A stretch of DNA of 41,923 bases, from NCBI GenBank assembly GCA_020051845.1, contig JAGVQG010000062.1, positions 1-41,923 on the forward strand, written 5' to 3'. Position numbers and translations under genes: made by a program. How positions within the stretch are numbered: the first letter of the stretch is position 1; every line of letters starts with the position of its first letter. Positions 3,654 through 25,464 of this stretch are shown here, piece after piece. The notes under the pieces are model-generated. The model made no database searches, had not been told where the DNA came from, and saw only the letters and a program-made list of their open reading frames with translations. This DNA is from an archaeon. GTDB taxonomy: Archaea > Nanobdellota > Nanobdellia > Woesearchaeales > ARS49.

Positions 3654-3663
3654 CTTTATAAAT
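3654..3663 (+). promoter_or_regulatory. TATA-like box of the cyclase operon
   Basis: The sequence CTTTATAAAT lies 33-42 bases before the ATG at 3696. This predicts a leader of roughly 5-15 bases. It heads the closely packed series of genes ending at 7837. Confidence 0.55.
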
Positions 3664-3695
3664 ACAATTAGTATAGTAATCCCGAGTGAAGACAC

Positions 3696-5294
3696 ATGGG
3701 ACTATTCAGCTCTAGGTCGGATAATCTGGCAAAACAGCTTAAGGTACGCACCAGGCAGCTCGATGCGATAAACCGCTTCAGCGCCCTCCGCGACCAGTGC
3801 CAGAACAGCAAGGACTTCCTTGACCAGGCAGCCCATTTCATAGCAAGCGAACTGGCTTCCAGATTCGTGGCCATCGTTCTCATGGAAGGCGAGAAGATGC
3901 AGATCTCCGCATCCACGTTGAATGATGTGACAAACCAGCATTCCGATGTCATCAACCTTCTCGCGCAGAACGCGATGAAGACAGGCAGGAATGTTATCAT
4001 AAACAACGCGCGACCACACCTGCGACTGCGCAACGCCAAGGTCGCTTGCGCGCTCGCCGCCCCATTGCTCTGGAAGAACCAGTACATAGGTGCTGTCGTC
4101 GCCTTCAGGTTCAAGCGTCTTGCCTTCGCGCAACGCTCGCTCCATACCATGCAGACGCTCTGCACACAGCTCCCCCCTGCCCTCGATTATGTGATGGCGG
4201 GCGAGAACGTCACGCAGCGCAACAAGGAACTCAAGATAATCTACGAGATAGACAAGGTCAAGGAGAAGTTCGGCAAGGACACGCAGATGCTCCTCGACGC
4301 GCTTGCCGAGCAGATACAGAAATTCACGAGCGCCAAGTGCGCGTTCATATTCCTCACAGACAACAAGACCAAGGGCACGAAGTTCGCGGCGACAGGGAAT
4401 GCCGCGGCGCACAAGGCCGTCCTCAAGGATTTCGCCGACGAATCAGTCGCACAGGGAGAGATGGTCGAGCAGAACATCAACTCCCACCTCAAGGACGCTG
4501 TCTGCATACCAGTCACCATAGGAGACGACCACGCCGCGTTCGGCATGGCGAACTCCAGCAACCAGGACGGCTTCACAGAGGAGGACAAACGCATCCTCGC
4601 AGCCATAGCAAAGCAGGCGGACAACGCCCTCTTCGAGGACCGCGAACGCAAGAAGATGCGGGACACTTTCTCGCGCTATGTCAGCGGCGACGTGCTCGAC
4701 ATAATCCTCAAGGACAGCGACGCCCTGCGTCCTGCGCGTCACGAGGCCACGCTCCTCTTCTCTGATCTGCGCGGTTTCACCTCGCTTTCGGAGACCATAG
4801 AGCCTGAGAAGGTGGTCGGCATGTTGAACGAGTATTTCACTGTCATGACCGAGATCATAATCAAGAACAAGGGCATGCTCGACAAGTTCGTCGGTGACGA
4901 GATCGTCGCCATGTTCGGCGCGCCGGTCTTCTTCGAGGACCACGCGAAGCGCGGCGTCAAGACAGCCGTCGAGATGCAGAAGGCCTTCAAGGACCTGCAT
5001 GCCAAATGGCGCAAGCAGGGCCTGCCTTCGGTGGGCCTGGGCATAGGCATCGACAGCGGCAACGTCGTCGTCGGAAACATCGGCGGCGAGCAGCGCGCCG
5101 ATTACACCGCCATCGGCGACCACATGAACACCGCGGCACGCCTCTGCAGCCACGCGACTCCGGGCCAGATATTGATCACACAGAACACCTACGATCAGGT
5201 ACGCAAGAGCGTCGTCGCGGACGAACTGCCCGCGTTGACACTCAAAGGCAAGACTTTGCCGGTGAAGGTTTACAATGCAGTCTCACTCAAGTAA
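3696..5294 (+). CDS. GAF-GAF-class III adenylate cyclase
   Basis: A 532-residue predicted soluble signalling enzyme that should convert ATP to cyclic AMP. Two GAF-like sensor domains (about residues 20-165 and 172-320) are joined by a helical linker to a class III nucleotide cyclase domain (about 349-530). The cyclase residues are all present: metal-binding D357 (FSDLRGF) and D401 (KFVGDE), adenine-selecting K397 and D469 (ADYTAIG), and transition-state N478 and R482 (NTAARL). K397 with D469 fits adenylate rather than guanylate cyclase. No transmembrane segment is seen, so the GAF domains probably sense a cytoplasmic ligand or mediate dimerisation. The next gene overlaps its end by 20 bases, which suggests co-transcription. 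Such cyclases are common in bacteria and sparse in archaea, so transfer is plausible. Confidence 0.93.
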   Translation: MGLFSSRSDNLAKQLKVRTRQLDAINRFSALRDQCQNSKDFLDQAAHFIASELASRFVAIVLMEGEKMQISASTLNDVTNQHSDVINLLAQNAMKTGRNVIINNARPHLRLRNAKVACALAAPLLWKNQYIGAVVAFRFKRLAFAQRSLHTMQTLCTQLPPALDYVMAGENVTQRNKELKIIYEIDKVKEKFGKDTQMLLDALAEQIQKFTSAKCAFIFLTDNKTKGTKFAATGNAAAHKAVLKDFADESVAQGEMVEQNINSHLKDAVCIPVTIGDDHAAFGMANSSNQDGFTEEDKRILAAIAKQADNALFEDRERKKMRDTFSRYVSGDVLDIILKDSDALRPARHEATLLFSDLRGFTSLSETIEPEKVVGMLNEYFTVMTEIIIKNKGMLDKFVGDEIVAMFGAPVFFEDHAKRGVKTAVEMQKAFKDLHAKWRKQGLPSVGLGIGIDSGNVVVGNIGGEQRADYTAIGDHMNTAARLCSHATPGQILITQNTYDQVRKSVVADELPALTLKGKTLPVKVYNAVSLK

Positions 5295-5865
5295 CTCGAC
5301 GGGAAACATCACGGTCTACCATGCGACTCCCTGGACGGATAGGATCCTCAGCAAGGGTAGCATCCAGTGCCCTAAGCTGTTCAGGATGGGCTTCACTGAA
5401 AGATACAATGCGTTCTTGAAAGACGAGTTGAAGTCTGTGCTGGACCGGCTCGAAGCAGGTGGGTTCAAGGGTCAGATCAAGGATAACTATGGGCTGGATC
5501 ACGTCCCCGTTGATGGACTGACCAAATTCCACGATTTCCAACATAATTTTTTCGTCTTGCTGGACACACGCATGGATCAGGCCGTGCATAGACTTCCATG
5601 CCATTCCAAAGCGGCTGCGGTCCTCGAACTATCGGTCCCTGAGGACAGACTTGTCGTCCCCTATACTATCACCCACAAAACAGGCACATACACCCCGATG
5701 GACAAGAGAGAAAGCTCAGAACTTCTCGCTCCACTCGAGCTTTCCCTCGAAGGTACGCTTCAAAAGATCCACTTCGCCAAAGGCGTCAAGGAGATAAAGA
5801 AACACTCCGGCCCCTACGAGGCGCAAGGCGTCGAACTCGTCGGGATAATCAATGGGCCGGTGTGA
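5275..5865 (+). CDS. YHAT-family protein 1, unknown function
   Basis: A 196-residue soluble protein that I do not recognise as a named family. Near the N-terminus it has ITVYHATPWTDRILSKGS with H16. A central stretch FFVLLDTRMDQAVHRL is followed by AVLELSVPEDRLVVP, and near the C-terminus comes LAPLELSLEGTLQKIHF. The same three blocks recur in the genes at 5867 and 7334, so the three are paralogues. The opening block resembles the first strand of H-Y-E type ADP-ribosyltransferase-like folds (PARP, DarT, Tpt1), where a His after an aromatic residue contacts NAD. That link is only an inference. The start overlaps the cyclase end by 20 bases, with no alternative ATG before the motif. Confidence 0.75.
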   Translation: MQSHSSNSTGNITVYHATPWTDRILSKGSIQCPKLFRMGFTERYNAFLKDELKSVLDRLEAGGFKGQIKDNYGLDHVPVDGLTKFHDFQHNFFVLLDTRMDQAVHRLPCHSKAAAVLELSVPEDRLVVPYTITHKTGTYTPMDKRESSELLAPLELSLEGTLQKIHFAKGVKEIKKHSGPYEAQGVELVGIINGPV

Positions 5866-5866
5866 A

Positions 5867-6505
5867 ATGGGACTTTTCATCAAGCTCTACCACGTGACTC
5901 CACTCGCGGACTTGGCGCTGATGGGCAGGCAGCTCTCATGCTATGATCTCACAAGCCCACTTTGCTCAGACCATACCTATCTAGCGCTCAAGAAGAAGCT
6001 CGACGACTACGAGCTTCTTCGGGATTACATCGACCTTCCAAAGCTCAGGAAGAACCGCGCCTTGCGTCAGGGCAATGATAGTGACGTCTGCTATCGCGTG
6101 TCCGAACGTTACGGAGAAGGCCTCACGATCGACGCCGCGCTCAAAATGGCCAAAGATCTCGAAAGCGGCACCCACGTCTGGTTCATGAGAGAACGCCAGA
6201 AAGGCAGGCTCATGACAGCATTGGGCGACCAGCCGACGCCGGTGGCGCAACTCGAGGTCGAGGTCGACGCTGAACGCGTCCATCTTCCTGTCGAGGCGCG
6301 CGGCGATGTCGATTGGCCGAAACGCATCATCCCTATCGAGCTGAAGCTCGAGTTCACATTGAGAAAGGTCTATCACCAGTATGAAGAGGATTCCGATCAC
6401 CTTGCAAGACTCATCTATAACCGTTTCCCGCGCTGCACCATTGAGCGCCAAAGCCATAAGAAGATGTACAGGCCGCAAAAGGTCGGTGGTCATGATGGCA
6501 AATAG
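5867..6505 (+). CDS. YHAT-family protein 2, unknown function
   Basis: A 212-residue soluble protein paralogous to its neighbours at 5275 and 7334. It opens with FIKLYHVTPLADLALMG (H9), has a central THVWFMRERQKGRLMTAL, then VAQLEVEVDAERVHLP, and a C-terminal block IIPIELKLEFTLRKVYHQY. I chose the ATG at 5867, one base after the preceding stop, because it puts the YHVT motif at the same distance from the N-terminus as in the paralogues. An in-frame ATG at 5852 would add five residues. The tail is rich in Lys and Arg. Its function is unknown; an ADP-ribosyltransferase-like fold is a hypothesis only. Confidence 0.75.
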   Translation: MGLFIKLYHVTPLADLALMGRQLSCYDLTSPLCSDHTYLALKKKLDDYELLRDYIDLPKLRKNRALRQGNDSDVCYRVSERYGEGLTIDAALKMAKDLESGTHVWFMRERQKGRLMTALGDQPTPVAQLEVEVDAERVHLPVEARGDVDWPKRIIPIELKLEFTLRKVYHQYEEDSDHLARLIYNRFPRCTIERQSHKKMYRPQKVGGHDGK

Positions 6506-7337
6506 CATCGAGACGCTCGCGCTGGGTTATTTCTCGAGGAACCTGATCGGGAATCTCAGGCAAGACAACCTACCCACCTTCAAATATGCCACCAATTCTG
6601 TCCGACCGTACGCCAACCCTTCGGAGAACATCATCGTTCTTCCAGAAAAAGTCCGCAACATCGTCGATGCGCTCTATCAAGCCACTTTCGGTGTCGGACA
6701 GTTAATTTACAGTAAGAAGAATATCAGTACTGGAAGCCTTGAGACCAGCATGGCGCAGCAGACCTTCAGCTCTTTCTGCGGTCTTTGCAACATCGATCTG
6801 CGCATAGCTGAGTGGAGGGAATGTAAGGTCGAGAGCCCGATTCAATCATCCATTCACTCGTTCATGAAACAGTATCTTGATCCGAAGAAAGCCGCGGAGA
6901 ACCAAGCATACTTCGAATTGCGCACTCAACCAGTGATTCCGACATCGATTATCAGGAAGGAAGCGCTGACGCCAGAAGTCGAGAAGAATATCGAAATGCT
7001 AAAGGCGTTTGGTTTGTTCACCGACTTCGAGATAGCTGCGAATTATTTGTTCAATATGGATCGCGTGCGCAGATTGAACACCCTTCAGGGGGATAAAAAA
7101 CATGTCGTCCAGGACGAGACGCTCAACTTGCATCACTCGCTGGCGAAGCACATGTATAACATCGATCCAAAGGAGCTGGCGCACAAAGTGATGAAGATGC
7201 AATGGATCGACGTCTCGGCCGCTGAGACCCAGGTCAACGCGCCATCCGTAAAGGACGATTCAACAAGCGTCATACTGCCGAAAGTCCATGACACGCCCAC
7301 AAGGATAGGCATGCCTGCTGTGGAGGGGAAGAAATGA
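6492..7337 (+). CDS. hypothetical protein of the cyclase operon
   Basis: A 281-residue soluble protein without a recognisable family. It has a cysteine cluster (FCGLCNIDL followed by a third Cys in REC) near the first third that might bind metal, a mixed helical middle, and a Pro/Thr-rich C-terminal tail. The start at 6492 (a second ATG follows at 6495) overlaps the preceding gene by 14 bases. The open frame extends upstream to 6381 but only as a shadow of the preceding gene. It ends in an ATGA overlap with the next gene, so it is translationally coupled inside the cyclase/YHAT operon. It lacks the YHAT blocks, so it is not a fourth paralogue. Confidence 0.7.
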   Translation: MMANSIETLALGYFSRNLIGNLRQDNLPTFKYATNSVRPYANPSENIIVLPEKVRNIVDALYQATFGVGQLIYSKKNISTGSLETSMAQQTFSSFCGLCNIDLRIAEWRECKVESPIQSSIHSFMKQYLDPKKAAENQAYFELRTQPVIPTSIIRKEALTPEVEKNIEMLKAFGLFTDFEIAANYLFNMDRVRRLNTLQGDKKHVVQDETLNLHHSLAKHMYNIDPKELAHKVMKMQWIDVSAAETQVNAPSVKDDSTSVILPKVHDTPTRIGMPAVEGKK

Positions 7338-7837
7338 CGATCACGCTTTACCACGCGACAGATGAAGCAGTCCGTCTGCTCGATCAGAGGGTGATGCTCT
7401 GTAGTGCCCTTGACAGTGCCGATTCTCCCGAGTCGCGTCGTGCCCATGGCCTGCGCATGAAGGATTACATCACAAAGTACGGGCTCTGGAGCCCGAAATG
7501 CGAGTGTTTCCGCGATGAGATGGGAATAGCTGAATTGTACAACCACATCGAACTGAGCACAGACATGCACAACGCCCTTGGTTGCTTGGAGCGTCCCAGG
7601 ACCCACCCCATCGTGTTGGAGCTGGAATTGGCAGACTGCGACGCGAGCATGCCTTTCGAGTTCAAGGGAGCGCAGTCGTCCCTTTGCCGCACACGTCTTG
7701 TCGCTGGCTGGCTTGATCTGAAGCCCGTTCTTCGCTGCGTGTATTACATGAAACCGCAGCAAAGTGGTCCACTGGTGCATGCCATGGAGAGTTATCCTGA
7801 CGCCAAGATGCACACCCCCAAGCAATCTCATATCTAG
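7334..7837 (+). CDS. YHAT-family protein 3, unknown function
   Basis: A 167-residue protein and the shortest of the three paralogues. It opens directly with MTITLYHATDEAVRLL (H7). Its central block is YNHIELSTDMHNALGCL, followed by PIVLELELADCDASMPFEF and a C-terminal LVAGWLDLKPVLRCVYY. It starts in an ATGA overlap with the upstream gene and is the last member of the operon; 43 bases and a new TATA-like region separate it from the next gene. As with its paralogues, the molecular function is unknown. The spacing of an N-terminal aromatic-His-x-Thr, a middle strand and a C-terminal strand is compatible with an ADP-ribosyltransferase-like fold, but the sequence alone does not prove it. Confidence 0.75.
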   Translation: MTITLYHATDEAVRLLDQRVMLCSALDSADSPESRRAHGLRMKDYITKYGLWSPKCECFRDEMGIAELYNHIELSTDMHNALGCLERPRTHPIVLELELADCDASMPFEFKGAQSSLCRTRLVAGWLDLKPVLRCVYYMKPQQSGPLVHAMESYPDAKMHTPKQSHI

Positions 7838-7880: not shown

Positions 7881-8351
7881 ATGTCGCTGATGAAAAGAGT
7901 TGCCCGTGAGCTGCCTCTGGCTGAGTTCACATTACGCAAGTACGAAAAGCCTTTCGGTCTTGAAGGCAGGGAACTCACAAGGAAACTCTGCCTTTCATTG
8001 GGTCTTCTGCAGCCGGGCGATTCAAGGGATGGTGTCGTGGATGTCCTGCATTCCATCCTACACTCCAAGGGACCATTGCCTCTCGAACAACTCACTTCTG
8101 AAGTCATCAACAGCCGAAAAAAAGCAGGACTGGATGCCGCAGGCATAGCTCCCTCGAACGTGCGTAGGCACCTGCGCCGCCTCAGATCTTTGTATCTTAT
8201 CGACCGTACTCCTCAAGGCTACCGCGTCCACGAAGGCGCGTCATTGCCTCAGCTTTTCGATGAGAAGATCGAGCAGTTCGTGCTAAAGGCGACGACCCAG
8301 CGCGTGAAGGAGTACATCGTCGCTGTCGAGCAGGCGAGGTTCGTGAAATGA
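7881..8351 (+). CDS. winged-helix DNA-binding protein
   Basis: A 156-residue predicted DNA-binding protein. The middle (about residues 50-115) reads as a winged helix: helices around VVDVLHSILHSKGPLPLEQLTSEV, a recognition helix around IAPSNVRRHLRRLRSL, and a wing ending in YLIDRTPQGYRVHEG. The C-terminal 40 residues are helical and may dimerise. It is translated with the following phosphoribosyltransferase through an ATGA overlap, so the two probably act together, for example as regulator and ligand-binding or enzymatic partner. A close TATA-like region upstream supports the start. The target sites cannot be read from the sequence. Confidence 0.7.
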   Translation: MSLMKRVARELPLAEFTLRKYEKPFGLEGRELTRKLCLSLGLLQPGDSRDGVVDVLHSILHSKGPLPLEQLTSEVINSRKKAGLDAAGIAPSNVRRHLRRLRSLYLIDRTPQGYRVHEGASLPQLFDEKIEQFVLKATTQRVKEYIVAVEQARFVK

Positions 8352-9583
8352 CCGCCGACGTCCTTTTGACTGAGGAGGAAAGGCAGATCGCCGCTGACCG
8401 TGAATACTACAGCCAATACAAGGATGCCATGGTTACGACTCTGATTTCGAGCGGCGCGCTCTTCAGCGACCCTGACAGGAGGATCTACGTGCCAAGCACG
8501 GGCTTCCCGCATGTCTGCCGCATCGACACGAACAAATGCGACGCTTCCGGCCTTGAGACTATCGCTGAACAGTATGCGGTCTACATCGCCAAGCGGCTCG
8601 GTCTTGACCTGCCGTTCTGGAAACGCCGACGGTTCAAATATGTGGCAGCGGACAGTCCGAAGGCGCGCGTGCTGGCAAAGGCGGTTGTTGATTGCTGGGC
8701 CAGACAGGGCGTCAAGAAGAGGCTGATCCACGTTCCTGAGCAATGCCACCAGCTCAAGGGAAACGCAATCATCGTCGACGATGCGGCACGCACAGGAAGC
8801 ACTATCGCGAGGAGCGCGTACACACTCATGAAGGCAGGCGCGACCGTGAGCCACATGTTCTGCGTCTTCAACTACCAATCAGGCACAGACCAGACCTTGG
8901 ATGAGACGTTCAAGGATGTGAAGAGAAAGCCCGCGCTGGACTTCATGCTCCGCCGTGACGACCGTCTGTTTCTTGATAAGATGAAGAAGAATAACGTGAA
9001 ACATAATCCTATGAGAAAGGAAGAGCTCGCGCTCTATTCCGTGCTCTGCCCATACCTGACCGGCGCCATCAGGTACAGCGCCAGGCACATGCACCAGCGC
9101 TACGTCAATGAAAGCAGGCCGCTGAATGACATCATTGTACCGACGAGCGGCAACAACCCCGATGACCTGCATAAAGCGTTCGAACGCGCCATACTGCGCC
9201 TCACCCTCGAAGTTGAGATGTACCCGCACGAGCAGATGCTCTGGTACGAACCCAGCAAGAATGAACGCGTTGAACCAGGGCGACAGGTTTACTCTGGCGA
9301 TCACTTCAAGAACAAGACCGAAGTCATCAAGAGCATGGATGAGGTGCGCGACAAGTTCATCAAGGAGCATTGCCCATCAGGCCTGCCCTGGATGCAGGCG
9401 CTGCCGTTCACCCTTCGCGAGACATTGCAGGACGCTGTCAATCGCAGATATTCCCTGAATAGCACCGGTGTCGAGCACACCCATCACGTGCGCGAGGTGT
9501 TCCGCCTGCTCAAGAAGCACCAGCCCGGGATTCCCTACAACATCTTCGGCCTGCCTGAGTGGGACACGCTCAGTCGTATCTAA
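8348..9583 (+). CDS. phosphoribosyltransferase-fold protein, atypical
   Basis: A 411-residue protein with a type I phosphoribosyltransferase core. The PRPP-binding loop is AIIVDDAARTGSTI at residues 140-153, with the acidic pair D144-D145, which normally contacts the ribose of PRPP. The N-terminal part (SSGALF, then RRIYVPSTGFPHVCRID) recalls the hood region of orotate phosphoribosyltransferases. About 200 C-terminal residues beyond the core are unassigned and have no counterpart in ordinary OPRT or APRT. It is coupled to the winged-helix gene by ATGA. The organism already carries a full OPRT in the UMP synthase at 28729-30147, so a role other than pyrimidine synthesis is likely. The base acceptor is unknown. 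Confidence 0.75.
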   Translation: MTADVLLTEEERQIAADREYYSQYKDAMVTTLISSGALFSDPDRRIYVPSTGFPHVCRIDTNKCDASGLETIAEQYAVYIAKRLGLDLPFWKRRRFKYVAADSPKARVLAKAVVDCWARQGVKKRLIHVPEQCHQLKGNAIIVDDAARTGSTIARSAYTLMKAGATVSHMFCVFNYQSGTDQTLDETFKDVKRKPALDFMLRRDDRLFLDKMKKNNVKHNPMRKEELALYSVLCPYLTGAIRYSARHMHQRYVNESRPLNDIIVPTSGNNPDDLHKAFERAILRLTLEVEMYPHEQMLWYEPSKNERVEPGRQVYSGDHFKNKTEVIKSMDEVRDKFIKEHCPSGLPWMQALPFTLRETLQDAVNRRYSLNSTGVEHTHHVREVFRLLKKHQPGIPYNIFGLPEWDTLSRI

Positions 9584-15645: not shown

Positions 15646-16005
15646 TCACTTGACGAACTCGACGCCAGGCAGCCCATCGAATTCCTTATCTCCTGTCAAG
15701 AACTTGAGATTGTGAACCAGTGCAAGTTGATACCCTATGCAGTCGACAGTGCTGAATTTCTTCTTGATGTGCCGAAACCTAAACTCCATCGCCCGTTTGA
15801 CCGTGTTCAAATCAATCTCGAGAATATCAGGATCAAACGCTTCAGTTATCAATCCTGCCCGGGAAGAGTTTGTCCGCTTCAATAAACCATAATAAAATTC
15901 ACCTACGTTCAATGCGCTCGTGGTTATTTGGTGATTGAAGAAAGCATCATACGCCGGATTCCCTTCATATATCTCGAACAGTGCATAGCTATCGAAGAAG
16001 TACAT
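15646..16005 (-). CDS. vapC: VapC-like PIN-domain toxin
   Basis: A 119-residue PIN-domain ribonuclease, the toxin of a type II toxin-antitoxin pair. Four acidic residues typical of the active site are visible: D5 (FFDSY), E36 (NVGEFYYG), D88 (STVDCIG) and D106 (LTGDKEF). The ATG at 16005 follows a GGAGGGT ribosome binding site and overlaps the antitoxin stop as TGATG, so the two are translationally coupled with antitoxin first. It should cleave RNA, often tRNA or rRNA in this family. A decayed homologous fragment lies 1.6 kb away at 13982-14069. Confidence 0.9.
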   Translation of the reverse strand: MYFFDSYALFEIYEGNPAYDAFFNHQITTSALNVGEFYYGLLKRTNSSRAGLITEAFDPDILEIDLNTVKRAMEFRFRHIKKKFSTVDCIGYQLALVHNLKFLTGDKEFDGLPGVEFVK

Positions 16006-16217
16006 CAACCCTCCAAATCTTCGTCTATCTCCTTCATCAGAGCGGCCACGCCGCCTTTGACCTTGAACTTTCCAAATATATCTTTCACGCGCGTATGACT
16101 TCTGCCTGGCTCAAGATGTATAGTTATCTCTTCGTTCGGACGTATTCCTAATTCTTTAGGTAGTACCACACCTACGCTGTTGCCCCATTTTCTAGTCCTG
16201 GCCTTCAAGTCTATCAT
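16005..16217 (-). CDS. vapB: VapB/AbrB-type antitoxin
   Basis: A 70-residue antitoxin with an N-terminal SpoVT-AbrB swapped-hairpin DNA-binding domain (KARTRKWGNSVGVVLPKELGI), followed by a toxin-binding tail (about residues 42-70). It neutralises the PIN toxin encoded just downstream and probably represses its own promoter. I use the ATG at 16217, giving MIDLKARTRKWGNS, because a TATA-like box and a perfect palindrome lie just upstream. The longer frame to 16259 would run through them. Confidence 0.88.
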   Translation of the reverse strand: MIDLKARTRKWGNSVGVVLPKELGIRPNEEITIHLEPGRSHTRVKDIFGKFKVKGGVAALMKEIDEDLEG

Positions 16218-24588: not shown

Positions 24589-25464
24589 ATGGACAAAGAC
24601 AACGCACTTGTGGTTTTTGAGGATAAGAAGATCAGGAGAATCTGGCATAATAACGAATGGTTTTTTTCAATAATTGATATTATTGCTGTTTTAACTGATA
24701 GTTCAATTCCGCGAAGATATTGGTCTGACCTTAAGATAAAGCTTAATGAAGAAGGTTTTGAGTTGTACGAAAAAATCGTACAACTGAAGTTACCATCTTC
24801 TGACGGCAAATATTACGACACTGATTGCGCCAGTACTAAATCACTCTTCAGGATAATACAGTCAATTCCATCAAGAAAGGCAGAGCCATTCAAAGTATGG
24901 CTTGCCCAAGTTGGTTATGCGCGAGTCCAAGAGATCGAGAATCCTGAACTGGCTCAAGAACGTATGAAAGAGCTTTATGAGCAGAAAGGATACTCTAAAC
25001 CATGGATAGACAAGAGACTTAGAGGGATTGCGGTAAGGCAGGATTTGACGGATGAATGGAAAAAGAGAGGCATTGATAAAAATACGGAGTTTTCAATTCT
25101 TACTGCCGATATCTCAAAAGCGACATTCGGGATGACTCCGACAGAATACAAGAAGTTCAAAGGAATCGATAAAGAGAACCTTCGCGACCATATGAACGAT
25201 CTCGAAATCATATTCACTATGCTTGGTGAAGCATCTACTACCGAAATAGAAAGGGTCAAAGAACCTAAATCGTTCCCTGAACACAGACAAGTATCTAAAG
25301 AAGGAGGAACAGTAGCGAAACATGCAAGAACAGAACTTGAACACAAGACCAGAAGAACTATCATGAGCAAGGAGAACTACTTGGACGAACCCGAGAATGA
25401 GAAGCGAAAAAGACTAAAGAAACCCAATCCTGAAACGGACGAAATTCCGTCAACAAAGAGTTGA
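24589..25464 (+). CDS. BRO-N family protein (antirepressor-like)
   Basis: A 291-residue protein of the BRO/prophage-antirepressor type. The BRO-N DNA-binding region covers about residues 5-110 (KKIRRIWHNNEWFFSIIDII, then a YWSDLKIKL segment). The conserved tail segment GGTVAKHARTELEHKTRRTI lies near residues 240-260, and the C-terminus is Lys/Glu-rich. Such genes travel with phages and mobile elements. The base composition is visibly richer in A/T than the flanking genes and the codon use differs, suggesting recent transfer. The palindrome AGCTTATAAGCT (24547-24558) lies 31 bases upstream and may be promoter or operator. Confidence 0.85.
   Translation: MDKDNALVVFEDKKIRRIWHNNEWFFSIIDIIAVLTDSSIPRRYWSDLKIKLNEEGFELYEKIVQLKLPSSDGKYYDTDCASTKSLFRIIQSIPSRKAEPFKVWLAQVGYARVQEIENPELAQERMKELYEQKGYSKPWIDKRLRGIAVRQDLTDEWKKRGIDKNTEFSILTADISKATFGMTPTEYKKFKGIDKENLRDHMNDLEIIFTMLGEASTTEIERVKEPKSFPEHRQVSKEGGTVAKHARTELEHKTRRTIMSKENYLDEPENEKRKRLKKPNPETDEIPSTKS

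Follow-up and report, generated by a model that had tools for sequence, protein, structure and literature searches.

A predicted GAF-controlled adenylate cyclase from a family distributed patchily among nanoarchaea, probably co-transcribed with orphan genes specific to its lineage

Does a nucleotide cyclase that heads a tightly packed run of unfamiliar genes control the products of those genes? The question is raised by positions 3696-7837 of contig JAGVQG010000062.1, which comes from an archaeon of the order Woesearchaeales with a genome of 1.33 Mb in 68 contigs. The window that we analysed was the entire contig, 41,923 bases (b) long. It contains a gene for a class III nucleotide cyclase with two GAF domains, followed by four genes that we call Y1, Y2, X and Y3. 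A preliminary description of the locus had taken a cyclase coupled to unknown genes in this manner as a frequent mark of a second-messenger or defence system. We consider it fairly likely that the locus carries a GAF-regulated adenylate cyclase whose family is patchily distributed among nanoarchaea, and that here its gene shares a transcript with a cluster of orphan genes specific to the lineage.

The cyclase turned out to be complete, as first described. Pfam recognised a pair of GAF domains as well as a Guanylate_cyc domain (residues 349-519, expectation value E 4.5e-25), the latter scoring 88.7 bits against a curated cut-off of 21.9, which places the protein in class III. The six residues named at the outset, D357, K397, D401, D469, N478 and R482, were all present; they include the metal-binding Asp pair D357/D401, the transition-state Asn N478 and the Arg R482 of class III enzymes, and all key residues were kept in five of the five full-length relatives described below. 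The adenine-selecting positions hold a Lys (K397) and, where Asp or Thr is expected, an Asp (D469), which we take to be the adenine-type pair of class III cyclases. The closest solved structures were class III adenylate cyclases, including CyaB (3r5g), and the best match was 6fht, a bacteriophytochrome-adenylate cyclase chimera; in the structure-match alignment, 2w01 has Glu at the position of K397. The window protein resembles the cyanobacterial CyaB1/CyaB2 type in its tandem GAF domains, linker helix, class III cyclase domain and ATP-type residues. The cyanobacterial proteins, however, carry a PAS domain between GAF and cyclase, whereas Pfam found none there in the window protein, which is archaeal. 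Judged by its sequence, then, the gene encodes a GAF-linked class III adenylate cyclase, a known type, in a domain of life from which very few such enzymes have been described (PMC8646023). The cyclase is real, and it probably works as an enzyme making cyclic adenosine monophosphate (cAMP). In the predicted scheme, a small ligand is bound by the two N-terminal GAF domains of this soluble protein, and these switch a homodimeric ATP-cyclising domain whose product would be 3',5'-cAMP.

The position of the cyclase at the head of a tight gene train was borne out, with four packed genes behind it (5275-7837), and each junction that had been claimed was recovered on the sequence. The cyclase gene and Y1 overlap by 20 b (5275-5294), Y1 and Y2 are separated by 1 b, Y2 and X overlap by 14 b if X starts at ATG 6492 or by 11 b if it starts at ATG 6495, and X and Y3 are joined by ATGA. 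The cyclase and the Y/X cluster are probably on one polycistronic message, which would carry three divergent copies of a small soluble Y protein and the unrelated X. All four downstream open reading frames (ORFs) look coding, their codon adaptation index (CAI) being 0.64-0.73 in frame versus 0.48-0.57 in six fixed frames over the same stretch. Other window genes ranged from 0.51 to 0.81, and the Y and X values fall inside this range; a recent foreign origin of the four genes was considered on codon usage and found no support, the values being normal for the window.

Three of the four genes had been called paralogues, and this held, but only as a remote relationship. On Smith-Waterman comparison against shuffled sequences, z was 4.1 for Y1-Y2, 3.5 for Y1-Y3 and 1.6 for Y2-Y3, and at most 1.2 for X against any Y. 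The Y proteins share YHx[ST] within their first 25 residues (YHAT in Y1 and Y3, YHVT in Y2), and of the 320 distinct ORFs at the loci retrieved, no others had this feature. Their common pattern begins with I-x-[LV]-Y-H-[AV]-T and a Cys 14 residues past the Thr; after a variable middle come LE[LV], a Pro and a last L-x-L...L..[VI][YH] segment. None of the four proteins is a recognisable cyclic-nucleotide effector, in agreement with the preliminary description. With E up to 10, PADLOC and PHROGs returned nothing for them, and Pfam and NCBIfam returned chance-level matches only; no cyclic nucleotide monophosphate (cNMP)-binding, TIR or other domain was matched in the family libraries, and no membrane-span-like stretch was present (maximum 19-residue hydropathy 1.23).

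Full-length relatives of the cyclase were found in five nanoarchaeal genomes (G040, G109, G392, G309 and G117) that belong to the same order or class as the window and are not close kin. They were 29-37% identical to it over the full length and had the same catalytic residues. In nearer genomes, of the same family, only cyclase-domain matches were obtained at the thresholds used. The five loci differ from the window, and from one another, in their neighbours. Downstream of the cyclase lies a convergent ArsR-like helix-turn-helix gene in G040 (Ca. Woesearchaeota CG11 43_8, locus L038) and a metallo-beta-lactamase (MBL)-fold protein in G109 (Ca. Woesearchaeota B72_G16, L039), where IF2 lies upstream. 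The cyclase stands between a convergent and a divergent gene, near a secretion ATPase, in G392 (L063); it is followed by a protein of 115 amino acids, with a divergent trypsin-like peptidase, in G309 (L064); and it is placed between proteasomal ATPase and eIF1A/KH genes in G117 (L065). A six-frame search with HMMER filters off found no relative of Y, X, P0006 or P0007 at the five loci, the best scores being E 0.022 for P0007 and E 0.4 or worse for Y or X. Around the five relatives, neither Pfam nor reading of the ORFs revealed a recognisable defence gene.

These observations did not bear out the use of such a gene arrangement as a second-messenger or defence marker, since Y/X genes lay beside none of the five relatives and the neighbours were different each time and partly housekeeping. 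The same gene order was sought elsewhere and not found, so that, for moderately distant relatives (29-37%), the proposed association of cyclase and Y genes does not hold; nor was there recurrence that would indicate enrichment near defence genes. As an observation in its own right, the cyclase at L039 has three GAF domains, and the MBL-fold gene begins 37 b downstream of it. The MBL-fold protein passes the Pfam Apyc1 cut-off (53.5 versus 50 bits) and is probably a phosphodiesterase of cyclic nucleotides; together with the cyclase it may form a full archaeal pair for making and degrading the messenger.

Searches for the Y and X genes in other genomes were negative throughout. Y1 was not found in 116 order-level relatives, and a Y profile gave no relative in 378 class genomes or 270 phylum genomes, weak matches aside; X was not found in the 116 relatives nor in ~270 phylum genomes, apart from matches at chance level. 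The weak Y-profile matches were dismissed: L006 is in a ribosomal-protein cluster, L005 was not recognisably related to Y, and L007 has internal stops. Those of X, which lay inside much larger frames or contained stops, were dismissed as well. Pattern or tblastn searches of GTDB contigs and viral contigs returned no Y or X. There was no match in phages for Y2 and Y3, nor in plasmids for Y1 and Y2, only these two proteins having been searched in each case. The negatives are bounded by the methods, pattern scans reaching close relatives only and single-sequence searches missing very remote ones. Because no other genome yielded Y or X, their co-occurrence with a cyclase is not demonstrable, and by these comparisons the four genes are a lineage-specific orphan cluster. 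Neither a tRNA gene nor a convincing flanking repeat was seen at this cluster.

No CRP-type cNMP-binding domain was found in the whole genome at E 0.01, and a cAMP receptor must therefore be something else. The best match to an Apyc1-type phosphodiesterase scored 23 bits, far under the cut-off of 50. Contig C37 carries another class III cyclase, whose sensor domain is CHASE2. The window cyclase would most likely act via a global cAMP signal and some receptor, and the Y/X cluster would most likely have been joined to it secondarily. That cAMP directly controls the Y/X proteins is possible but less likely, and functional coupling of Y/X to the cyclase is possible but unsupported. Several points weigh against the idea of a secondary association. 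Four successive junctions, all overlaps or a 1-b gap, suggest that the cyclase is co-regulated with Y and X. Sequence searches could miss a set of effectors that is young or evolves fast. Moreover, the five cyclases compared are distant (29-37% identity), and loss of linkage there therefore does not disprove coupling here; the window species is the sole sampled member of its genus.

A different question is what the Y proteins themselves might be. They could be divergent ADP-ribosyltransferases of the H-Y-E/PARP-DarT-DUF952 kind, perhaps self-modifying or toxin-like and cAMP-linked or not, a proposal that we regard as possible but doubtful. It is compatible with the other readings, and the likelihoods that we attach to the readings do not add up to a whole. 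In H-Y-[EDQ] ADP-ribosyltransferases, motif I is Hx[ST] on strand 1 (PMC7955679). The N-terminal YHx[ST] of Y1, Y2 and Y3 matches this motif, with the strand placed by eye; it is followed in Y1 by an ILxxGxxxC stretch that looks helical by eye, and the later LE[LV] segment and the final L-x-L...[VI][YH] segment are readable as parts of the same fold. The feature shared with DarT, DUF952 and PARP is this N-terminal motif; the Y proteins have no significant profile or structural support, and the catalytic Glu is not conserved among them, a motif-III Glu being placeable in Y1 only. No Pfam ADP-ribosyltransferase family was matched even at E 10. Profile alignment by hhalign was made against one such family, DUF952, and gave a probability of 0.5% over 14 columns; the DUF952 proteins had been fetched with a consensus query that was verified with Pfam. 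AlphaFold2 models were unusable, with a predicted local distance difference test (pLDDT) score of 31 for Y1 with its paralogues and 40 for Y3 alone. DarT (PF14487) was absent from the organism's own genome and hardly present in the class.

Less probable still is a cAMP-controlled module, Pycsar- or CBASS-like with ATP as substrate, in which the GAF domains would sense a signal and cAMP would activate at least one Y or X protein in defence or stress. The tight packing of the gene train would suit it, as would the lack of a CRP-type domain in the genome and the presence of three tandem diverged paralogues, which fit a fast-evolving effector family. It is weakened by the finding that cyclase and Y/X co-occur nowhere else searched, by the housekeeping or unrelated neighbours of the cyclase relatives, and by the Y and X proteins themselves, which match no defence family and in which no nucleotide-binding fold was recognised. 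A second-messenger or defence reading of the gene train is thus of low probability. Its combination with the preceding proposal is very improbable: a GAF-sensing archaeal adenylate cyclase would switch, through cAMP, one further protein and three diverged effectors resembling ADP-ribosyltransferases, all encoded in its own message. If true, Pycsar would have a purine counterpart whose effectors form a new class.

The PADLOC PycC models match the window cyclase (best E 4.4e-26), but the CHASE2 cyclase from this genome scores about equally with them, as do the relatives of the GAF-cyclase, and for this reason the matches indicate class III membership only. The window cyclase lacks the residues reported to select pyrimidines in Pycsar clades B, D and E (PMC11224242); around D401 it has K397 at D-4, V399 at D-2 and V404 at D+3, together with the adenine-site D469; clades A and C were not compared. 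A Pycsar system with a pyrimidine cyclase and unusual effectors can hardly be credited, the locus being like PycC with PycTIR or PycTM in that a class III cyclase adjoins other genes, but unlike it in that its residues are ATP-type, the cyclase has no effector of the TIR, membrane or cNMP-binding sort next to it, and there is no link to defence genes.

The features are collected in the table below. A sigma-70 type promoter scan was uninformative, as expected for an archaeon. A small ORF divergent from the cyclase gene encodes 76 amino acids with one hydrophobic stretch and has a TATA-like sequence of its own. Behind Y3, a gap of 43 b contains a TATA-like CTATAAAGG, read by eye ~20 b before the next gene pair, and because of this element the pair is probably its own unit. 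Its two genes overlap by ATGA; the phosphoribosyltransferase-like protein is weakly similar to PRTase-CE and had no relative in 116 order-level genomes. Farther along the window are a Bro-N antirepressor-like gene with a guanine-plus-cytosine (GC) content of 0.40 and a CAI of 0.51, in a contig of 54% GC, which by these values is probably virus-derived, and a gene of low GC (0.44) for a PIN-domain protein, possibly the orphan toxin of a toxin-antitoxin pair.

Table. Features of the window and of two loci outside it
Feature	Position	Strand	Basis
TATA-like box (CTTTATAAATA region), archaeal promoter candidate, ~30-40 b before the cyclase ATG	3655..3665	+	consensus match by eye
GAF-GAF-class III nucleotide cyclase, 532 amino acids, predicted ATP-specific (K397, D469)	3696..5294	+	domains, residues, structure matches
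Y1, orphan protein, 196 amino acids, N-terminal ITVYHATP...ILSKGSIQC	5275..5865	+	sequence; no family match
Y2, orphan paralogue, 212 amino acids, N-terminal IKLYHVTPLADLALMGRQLSC	5867..6505	+	sequence comparison
X, orphan protein unrelated to the Y genes, 280 amino acids from ATG 6495	6492..7337	+	sequence comparison
Y3, orphan paralogue, 167 amino acids, N-terminal TITLYHATDEAVRLLDQRVMLC	7334..7837	+	sequence comparison
Next gene pair, probably a separate unit: winged-helix-like (7881-8351), phosphoribosyltransferase-like (8348-9583)	7881..9583	+	sequence, family searches
ORF of 76 amino acids	3350..3580	-	
PIN-domain protein gene	15646..16008	-	
Bro-N antirepressor-like gene	24589..25464	+	
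Triple-GAF cyclase and MBL-fold protein, G109	L039:9985-12877	-	
CHASE2 class III cyclase, own genome, contig C37	L044:404-2362	-	

The orphan cluster provides four concrete candidates for a cAMP link, to which gene order alone points. Beyond it, a class III cyclase match was present in 29 of the 116 order-level relatives, often within a long frame about as large, and this is more than the "very few" reported for archaea (PMC8646023) suggests. Given the two class III cyclases of this genome, its lack of a CRP-type domain and the matches in those relatives, these tiny archaea may commonly use cAMP signalling through some non-CRP receptor.

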